A stretch of 64,000 nt of DNA, taken from Halorubrum halophilum. GTDB taxonomy: Archaea; Halobacteriota; Halobacteria; Halobacteriales; Haloferacaceae. Made by a program: the position numbers and the translations under genes. The notes beneath the pieces are model-generated. The model searched no databases. It worked only from the letters and a program-made list of their open reading frames with translations, and was not told the origin of the DNA. The stretch is taken from assembly GCF_000739595.1 (NCBI RefSeq), contig NZ_BBJP01000006.1, positions 1 through 64,000 of the forward strand. Direction: 5' to 3'. Position 1 is the first letter of the stretch; each line of letters opens with the position of its first letter. Below are positions 15,161-55,705 of the stretch, piece by piece.

Positions 15161-15204
15161 ACGCACGTCGGCTGAGCGATCGCCGTCGTGGAAGAACGCC
15201 GGCG

Positions 15205-15671
15205 AGCGATTTCGGGAGTACGTGATGTAGACCGACTTGGGCGTTATTTATAAACCGGATCGACGTGTTGCTGTCAGCTGTTTATAAGCGACTGACGACG
15301 CTGCGGTGAACACCTTCAAAGCCCCAGCCGGGAGGCGGGCGCACGCTCGCTGCGGTCCTCGGTCGTTCGCTTCGCTCACTCCCTGTGGTCCTTGCGTCCC
15401 CTGCGCCCGCCTCCCGGCTGCCCCTTTGAGTCCCACCCGACCGCAACCGCACCGCCTCACGCCTCCCCAGCCTCGCGGCTCGTTCGGGGCTCCCTTCGGT
15501 CGCCCGCATCACTCGCCGCGTCCCTCGCGCGTGCCGCTCGCGGCCTAGCGGCCGCTCACGGGCACGCGCCACCGCCTCGTTTATTTATAAGCGATTGTCA
15601 CCCTCGCTCAAACGCGTTTAAATATCTCATCGCCGTCACCGAACCGCAACACCCACTCTCGCTGTCGATCG
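15205..15671 (-). repeat. Dispersed structured element, copy 1 (minus orientation)
   Basis: First of three related elements (others at 35514 and 55211). Read on the minus strand it has an end with GCGAGAGTGGGTGTTG, TTTAAA and TTATAAA boxes, GGTGGCGCG, a GC-rich stem, GGCTGGGGAGG, and a 27-nt stem (arms 15402-15428 and 15319-15345). The arms pair perfectly except that GGG faces GGG between CAAAG/CTTTG and CAG/CTG. The far end near 15205 (CGGGAGT) is a weak inverted copy of the first. It fills the gap between the epimerase and wecC. No protein is likely; it may be a structured RNA gene or MITE-like element. Confidence 0.75.
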
Positions 15672-35513: not shown

Positions 35514-36017
35514 ATGACGGGCGAGAGTGAATGAATCAGATCGGTGGCGTCGATACAATATTTAAATAACCGTGAGCGACGGCGAGGTCTGCTTATAAAT
35601 ACGGTGCGGTGGCGCGCCCCGGTGAGCGGCCCAGCGGGCCGCTCACCGACGGTGCGAGGTCGCCGGCGCTGTGCGCCGGCTGCCAGAGGGACCTTCGGTC
35701 CCTCGCTGGAGTCGGTCGGCCGGAGCGAAGCGACGGGCGACCGACGAGGCTGGGGAGGTGAGAGGTGCGGTTGCTGTGCGGGGCGGGTGGGACTCAAAGG
35801 GGCAGCCGCGAGGACGACGCAGGCGACGGAAGCACCGCAGGAACGAGCGATGCGAGTGACGAGGAGCGCAACGAGCGTGCGTCGTCCTCGCGGCTGGGGC
35901 TTTGGAAGTGTTCGCCGCAGAGCTATCGATCACGGATACACAGCCGACAGCAACACCCTCGATCACTGATAAACAACCTCACTGACAAAGTACGATACCC
36001 ACTCCCGCTATCGATCG
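35514..36017 (+). repeat. Dispersed structured element, copy 2
   Basis: Directly follows the DUF1616 gene. In order it shows GCGAGAGTGA at the left end, a TTTAAA box (35561-35566), a TTATAAAT box (35593-35600), a perfect 13-bp-arm palindrome (35620-35648) and GGCTGGGGAGG (35751-35761). A 27-nt stem follows (arms 35795-35821 and 35878-35904) with GGG facing GGG between CAAAG/CTTTG and CAG/CTG. It then has GACAGCAACAC, and the right end ACTCCCGCTATCGATC (to 36017) inverts the left-end motif. The boxes lie where an archaeal promoter would start RNA at the palindrome. No real protein frame is present. Confidence 0.78.
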
Positions 36018-55122: not shown

Positions 55123-55210
55123 GCGGGCACTAAGGAGGGAGAGGTCCCGTTAAACCCCTTAGCGGGCGGTTAACTCGAACTAATTGCGATCGGTGACGAT
55201 ACATCGACGG

Positions 55211-55705
55211 TCGATTCCGGGAGTGAGTGTTGCAGATCGGTGGTGGCAAGAGCGTATTTAAAAAGACATGAGCGATCGTGAGATAGCTTATAAAGAACGA
55301 TGCGGTGGCGCGCCCCGGTGAGCGGCCCAGCGGGCCGCTCACCGACGGTGCGAGGGAGTCGCTGGCGCCGACGGCGCCAGCGACGAGGCTGGGGAGGTGT
55401 GAGGTGCTGTGCGGTGCGGGGCGGGACTCAAAGGGGCAGTCGCCGGCGGCTTCGCCGCCGGCTGCCAGAGGCGCGAAGCGCCTCGCTGCCGCGAGGACGG
55501 TGCAGGCGACGTAAGCACCGCAGCGAAGGAGCGGTAGCGACTGAGTGAGGAGCGCAGCGAGCGTGCACCGTCCTCAGCGACTGGGGCTTTGGCAGTGTTC
55601 ACCGCAGCACTATCGATCGCTTATAAACAGCCGACAGCAACACCACTCGATCACTTATAAACCACCACTCACCCAACTCGCTATACTCACTCCCGCTATC
55701 GATCA
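55211..55705 (+). repeat. Dispersed structured element, copy 3
   Basis: The clearest copy for terminal repeats: TCGATTCCGGGAGTGAGTG at the left end and, inverted at the right end, TGATCGATAGCGGGAGTGAGT. Inside are TTTAAA (55257-55262) and TTATAAA (55288-55294) boxes, the same perfect palindrome (55316-55344), GGCTGGGGAGG, and CAAAGGGGCAGTCGC (55429-55443) pairing with GCGACTGGGGCTTTG (55577-55591). GAGGACGGTGCA (55493-55504) pairs with 55564-55575. Two extra hairpins are inserted between these stem parts (55443-55461 and about 55466-55484). GACAGCAACAC follows. Confidence 0.8.

Follow-up and report, generated by a model that had tools for sequence, protein, structure and literature searches.

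A conserved mismatch at the base of a hairpin in a modular palindromic repeat widespread among haloarchaea

The 64,000-nucleotide stretch of the Halorubrum halophilum genome that we analysed (the window; contig NZ_BBJP01000006.1, positions 1 to 64,000) carries three copies of an intergenic element, at 15204-15670 on the forward strand and at 35518-36016 and 55209-55704 on the reverse strand. Each copy lies downstream of a gene that points towards it. Two of them sit between convergent genes, in one case an epimerase and a UDP-glucose dehydrogenase-type gene and in the other a heparinase-type and a proline dehydrogenase-type gene. In the orientation of the element, its first hairpin (hairpin A) reads CAAAG-CCC-CAG, then a stem, then CTG-CCC-CTTTG followed by AGTCCCACCC. 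The paired CAAAG/CTTTG, three facing mismatches and the paired CAG/CTG occur in all three copies. In the 35.8 kb copy the 3' arm occupies 35795-35805 and the 5' arm 35894-35904 on the reverse strand. On the forward strand these arms read CAAAG (35795-35799), GGG (35800-35802) and CAG (35803-35805), and CTG (35894-35896), GGG (35897-35899) and CTTTG (35900-35904). The arm pattern is identical in the 55.4 kb copy (3' arm 55429-55439, 5' arm 55581-55591). In the 15.3 kb copy, which has the opposite orientation, CAAAG CCC CAG stands at 15317-15327 (CAAAGCCCCAG) and CTG CCC CTTTG at 15418-15428 (CTGCCCCTTTG), so any single strand of the element has CCC on both sides or GGG on both. The initial annotation had described GGG opposite GGG between these two helices in every copy; the framework holds in all three, with GGG facing GGG on one strand and CCC facing CCC on the other. 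The arm positions that it gave also stand, except that the 15.3 kb arm begins two bases earlier, at 15317 rather than 15319.

Hairpin A is one module of a three-hairpin element with conserved linkers and imperfect inverted ends, full copies of which are mostly about 440-515 bp long. The modules follow in the order TATA-like box and GGTGAACACCTC, hairpin A, AGTCCCRCCC, the linker CCTCAC[GA]CCTCCCCAGCCTCG, hairpin B, CTCCCTCG, hairpin C, GCGCGCCACCGC and a second TATA-like box. The 35.8 kb copy, whose limits were set by its 5' terminal inverted repeat and all-against-all depth, with the 3' end placed by eye, runs from the 5' inverted end (GATCGATAGCGGGAGTGGGTATC, 35994-36016) to a diverged 3' inverted end. 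Between these, on the reverse strand, lie the conserved block AGTCCCACCC (GGGTGGGACT on the forward strand) adjoining the 3' arm at 35785-35794, the conserved linker CCTCCCCAGCC (GGCTGGGGAGG on the forward strand) at 35748-35758, hairpin B, an exchangeable palindromic module, at 35712-35744, and hairpin C at 35620-35648. An optional inserted double hairpin, GCCGGCG..CGCCGGC-TGCCAGAGGGACC..GGTCCCTCGC when read on the forward strand, occupies 35661-35711, also on the reverse strand. The linker lies at 15455-15475 in the 15.3 kb copy and, as CCTCCCCAGCC, at 55387-55397 in the 55.4 kb copy, which has its terminal inverted repeat at 55682-55704.

Hairpin A keeps its shape with inserts ranging between about 10 and 240 nt in length. 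Its interior runs in one direction relative to the arms in 206 copies and in reverse in 7, and an inversion switch was rejected with just these 7 of 233 copies inverted. Shortened forms include a 130-bp copy that lacks the core, its two sides meeting at a TTTATAAGCGATCG direct repeat, and another copy without hairpin A; the 130-bp copy keeps both inverted ends (L106, about 270-400). The double hairpin (GCCGGCG..CGCCGGC-TGCCAGAGG..CCTCGC) is found at 35661-35711 and 55440-55493, within hairpin A of one copy and beside hairpin B of another. The same insert turns up in many further copies, in the manner of a small repeat sitting inside a larger one. Tandem arrays of two to four 5' units, each running from the TATA-like box to CAAAGCCCCAGCCGCTCG, occur at L274 (G004), L003 and L352. 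A further optional module, GGAAGACG..CGACTTCCGTGCTCCCGCTCGCT.., stands between AGTCCCACCC and the linker at L309, L310, L019 and L050.

The hairpin is widespread in haloarchaea of many genera, far beyond what the window alone showed. The core motif CTGCCCCTTTGAGTC was found, at no more than one mismatch, at 138 places in the 3.68 Mb genome (0 for the reversed control) and at 5-186 places in 47 of the 51 other Halorubrum genomes, with 0 in four. These four congeners (G034, G042, G045 and G046) lack any full motif; upstream of its hemC gene, G042 nonetheless retains hairpins B and C together with the linker. When genome contigs were scanned with a 20-mer, all of the matches listed (80 loci) came from Halorubrum. 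A homologous hairpin in Halobaculum, Halorussus and Natrinema plasmids led to a sister motif, GGCCCCTTTCAGTCCC, of the form GAAAG CCC..CCC CTTTC-AGTCCCRCCC. Of the 243 genomes of the order, 143 carry this sister motif, as do 49 of its 77 genera, with as many as 186 copies against control counts of 0-1 per strand; Haloarcula and Haladaptatus, as well as Halobaculum, Halorussus and Natrinema, are among the carriers. A looser search allowing three mismatches reached up to 305 places, with high-copy genomes prominent, and was noisier (controls, 0-12 per strand).

Conservation of the loop was assessed in 262 distinct copies, 233 from Halorubrum and 29 from other genera. The CCC is intact in 230 of 233 Halorubrum copies on the left and in 230 of 233 on the right, and in 28/29 and 29/29 of the copies from other genera, respectively. 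A normally pairing CAAAGGGGCAG arm occurs in just 2 of 101 copies from the H. halophilum genome. Thus in the further copies the runs neither vary freely nor pair, the two outcomes that the initial annotation had named as telling against its reading. In Halorubrum and in the other genera, respectively, the lower helix is paired in 98% and 99% of cases and the upper stem in 92% and 90%, compared with 0% for the facing CCC and 1-59% in the helices when partners were slid as a control. When 38 diverse copies are aligned without gaps, 96.3% of cells are paired, both sides are changed in 188 cells against a mean of 69 in shuffles (which ignore kinship), and covariation is 0.700 against at most 0.120 when slid. 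Most copies were retrieved by patterns that include one CCC run, so some bias remains in these counts; searches baited instead with the linker or with the other arm agree with them.

The facing CCC/CCC stays constant while bordering pairs swap, as had been claimed for a constrained mismatch beside covarying neighbours. Every one of the 29 copies from other genera closes the lower helix at its outer end with G-C, where nearly all Halorubrum copies have C-G. At the second position above the loop, other genera carry mostly C-G, against A-T in Halorubrum, and some Halorubrum species have CGAAG/CTTCG in the lower helix. Within Halorubrum, CAAAG/CTTTG and CAG/CTG approach the invariance of the loop itself, and covariation at the bordering pairs is confined to comparisons across genera and to a few species. 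The runs in the neighbourhood to which attention had been drawn are conserved too: the linker GGCTGGGGAGG is found in 155 copies at no more than three mismatches, and two GGG runs one base apart lie beside the arm in 217 of 233 Halorubrum copies, the second of them being lost in 6 of 29 copies from other genera. However, singling out the G-runs is not warranted. AAAG, CTTT and AGTCCC are almost as invariant as the loop, so that what is marked is a composite motif, with the consensus [GC]AAAG-CCC...CCC-CTTT[GC]-AGTCCCRCCC. A mismatch that is almost fixed in a stem that varies yet still pairs suggests that something recognises it, and the mismatch base is a plausible binding site.

Based on gene calls by a simple script, about 95% of 186 copies are intergenic, and the flanking genes are convergent at 69 of 176 sites and divergent at 28. 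Between tandem genes the element shows no orientation bias (40 versus 39). Species differ in whether they carry the element at the orthologous hisG and hemC sites. Copies common to several species at orthologous sites indicate that much of the family is old. At the same orthologous site, hairpin B may belong to different palindrome families in different species while the linkers are unchanged. Whole hairpins have been exchanged between copies, likely by recombination. Thus, much of the covariation comes from exchange of whole modules and not only from stepwise compensatory mutation. This weakens the usual inference of a functional RNA from covariation, but pairing is still clearly kept.

We favour, by a narrow preference, the reading that the conserved motif is the base of hairpin A in a pan-haloarchaeal family of non-autonomous, intergenic modular palindromic repeats and that this base is recognised in trans when folded. 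From the comparison of copies we infer that a trans-acting factor recognises the folded form, either as an extruded DNA hairpin or as a transcript. A trans-acting protein could read the base motif, in which two short helices enclose the CCC/CCC or GGG/GGG loop. Nothing beyond the helix and the base would be required, so the stem could drift in sequence and length, and recombination among the many copies would exchange modules. The same factor may be what once spread the copies; no target duplication is visible in 27 end pairs and the comparisons revealed no precise empty site, so that transposition stays an inference.

The main alternative, which we consider unlikely though it deserves weight, is that each copy is a structured small RNA gene transcribed from the upstream TATA box, in which the CCC/CCC loop and the single-stranded AGTCCCRCCC and CCTCCCCAGCC bind protein or other RNAs. 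The strong covariation and the fixed orientation of the hairpin interior would fit a transcribed RNA, as would a TATA-like box upstream of CAAAG in 157 of 231 Halorubrum copies, nearly always at 33-42 nt; the transcript would start near GGTGAACACC. However, the box is missing from all 29 copies of other genera, copy number ranges from 0 to 186 inside one genus, the stems change chiefly by swaps of whole modules, and Rfam 15 gave no match to the element at gathering or relaxed thresholds. Mismatches give a split strand signal: G-T exceeds A-C in the lower helix (15 versus 1), which would fit an RNA made from the C strand sequence, whereas the upper stem, with duplicates removed, favours the other strand (A-C 69 versus G-T 27). 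Because the two helices disagree, the use of these counts to assign an RNA strand was dropped. A tRNA scan of the window found none. The box stands almost only 33, 36, 39 or 42 nt before CAAAG. This 3-nt spacing probably reflects subfamilies; a small open reading frame was rejected since codon-phase entropy is flat in the 5' part and the hairpin breaks the frame, arm-to-arm lengths of 99-104 all being common.

A fuller version of recognition in trans, which we likewise consider unlikely, is that a new protein reads the folded strand, DNA or RNA, through the three-by-three C-C or G-G mismatch between two short helices, at as many as hundreds of sites in a genome and throughout the Halobacteria. 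The element would then be a site of recombination or transposition or an organiser of convergent gene ends, and the hairpin interiors would serve as a shuffling pool.

It is improbable that the copies are functionless MITE or PATE remnants whose motif appears invariant owing to the recent origin and close similarity of the copies. Their variable number and the imperfect inverted ends with GATCGATAGCGGGAGT, reached in about one third of copies, are what such remnants would leave. However, the motif and its mismatch are common to families of the order while the stems differ, the ends are not those of IS605, and the ends show no target duplication. All copies of the end motif inspected in the H. 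halophilum genome flank elements or their remnants.

More improbable again is that the conserved runs form a G-quadruplex or i-motif at molar KCl, with hairpin A as one of its loops, that blocks or marks the end of convergent transcription. Quadruplexes have been reported for Haloferax volcanii, both in vitro and within cells (PMC12873603). Every conserved block of the element holds G-runs, including the two beside the arm, and a G4Hunter-type score reaches 1.88 at 35778, where the 99.9th percentile of the window is 1.48 (top 0.1%). Against this, the helix that a quadruplex must open covaries and stays paired in 98-99% of cases, and the proposal of the initial annotation that the runs seed such a structure is not borne out. 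Moreover, AAAG/CTTT is nearly as conserved as the runs, and the second run is not always retained outside Halorubrum. A G4-aware folding program, which cannot place a long hairpin in a quadruplex loop, preferred the quadruplex for one window copy out of three and folded all four short copies without one. Three other candidates were rejected: an IS605/TnpB end (the full element lies near 2 of 30 TnpB loci, within density expectation), a viral origin (phage records and IMG/VR lack the element, and three viral contigs match an 18-mer without the hairpin) and a CRISPR repeat (GTGGGACTGAAAG resembles the 3' end of archaeal CRISPR repeats, but no array was seen).

We regard the element as a variant of the modular palindromic repeat kind. 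No paper naming it, or any of four core-motif strings, was found in the open-licence literature searched, and the repeat is absent from the Rfam and gene annotation that we looked at. If it is recognised when folded, it would point to a new archaeal nucleic-acid binding or mobilising protein. At minimum, the repeat accounts for many hairpins between Halorubrum genes and cautions against taking such hairpins for single-locus regulators.

Among known systems, the small mobile repeats (SMR) of Haloquadratum walsbyi are likewise haloarchaeal, non-coding and present in many copies, with no target duplication (PMC3119063; 27 end pairs here). Inverted ends are seen here as well; those of SMR are unassigned to a known transposon. 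Judged against the published description of SMR, the element differs in having several large palindromic modules, a conserved mismatch base and a distribution across many genera. PATE and IS200-IS605 ends are similarly palindromes without coding sequence; unlike them, the element has inverted ends and is not associated with TnpB loci of the same genome. It differs from MITEs in that neither a target duplication nor a clean empty site was found. The BOX elements of Streptococcus pneumoniae are modular repeats (A, B and C) with stem-loops, a likeness that the element shares, but sequence and host are unrelated and its inner modules are distinct palindromes rather than tandem copies of one. Integron attC sites, which a tyrosine integrase recombines in gene cassettes, combine a conserved arm, an unpaired spacer, a second helix and a variable stem, and are recognised as a folded single strand. 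Hairpin A resembles them in shape alone, as we recognised no cassette array and no attC box sequences. Like REP, BIME and REPIN sequences, the repeats are intergenic imperfect palindromes present in hundreds of copies; in contrast to these, they are archaeal and have no known RAYT (Y1 transposase) partner, and the hairpin of about 110-250 nt lies inside an element of 440-510 bp. Several elements in genome G194 are arranged tail to tail with about 50 bp between them, an arrangement that recalls REP doublets.
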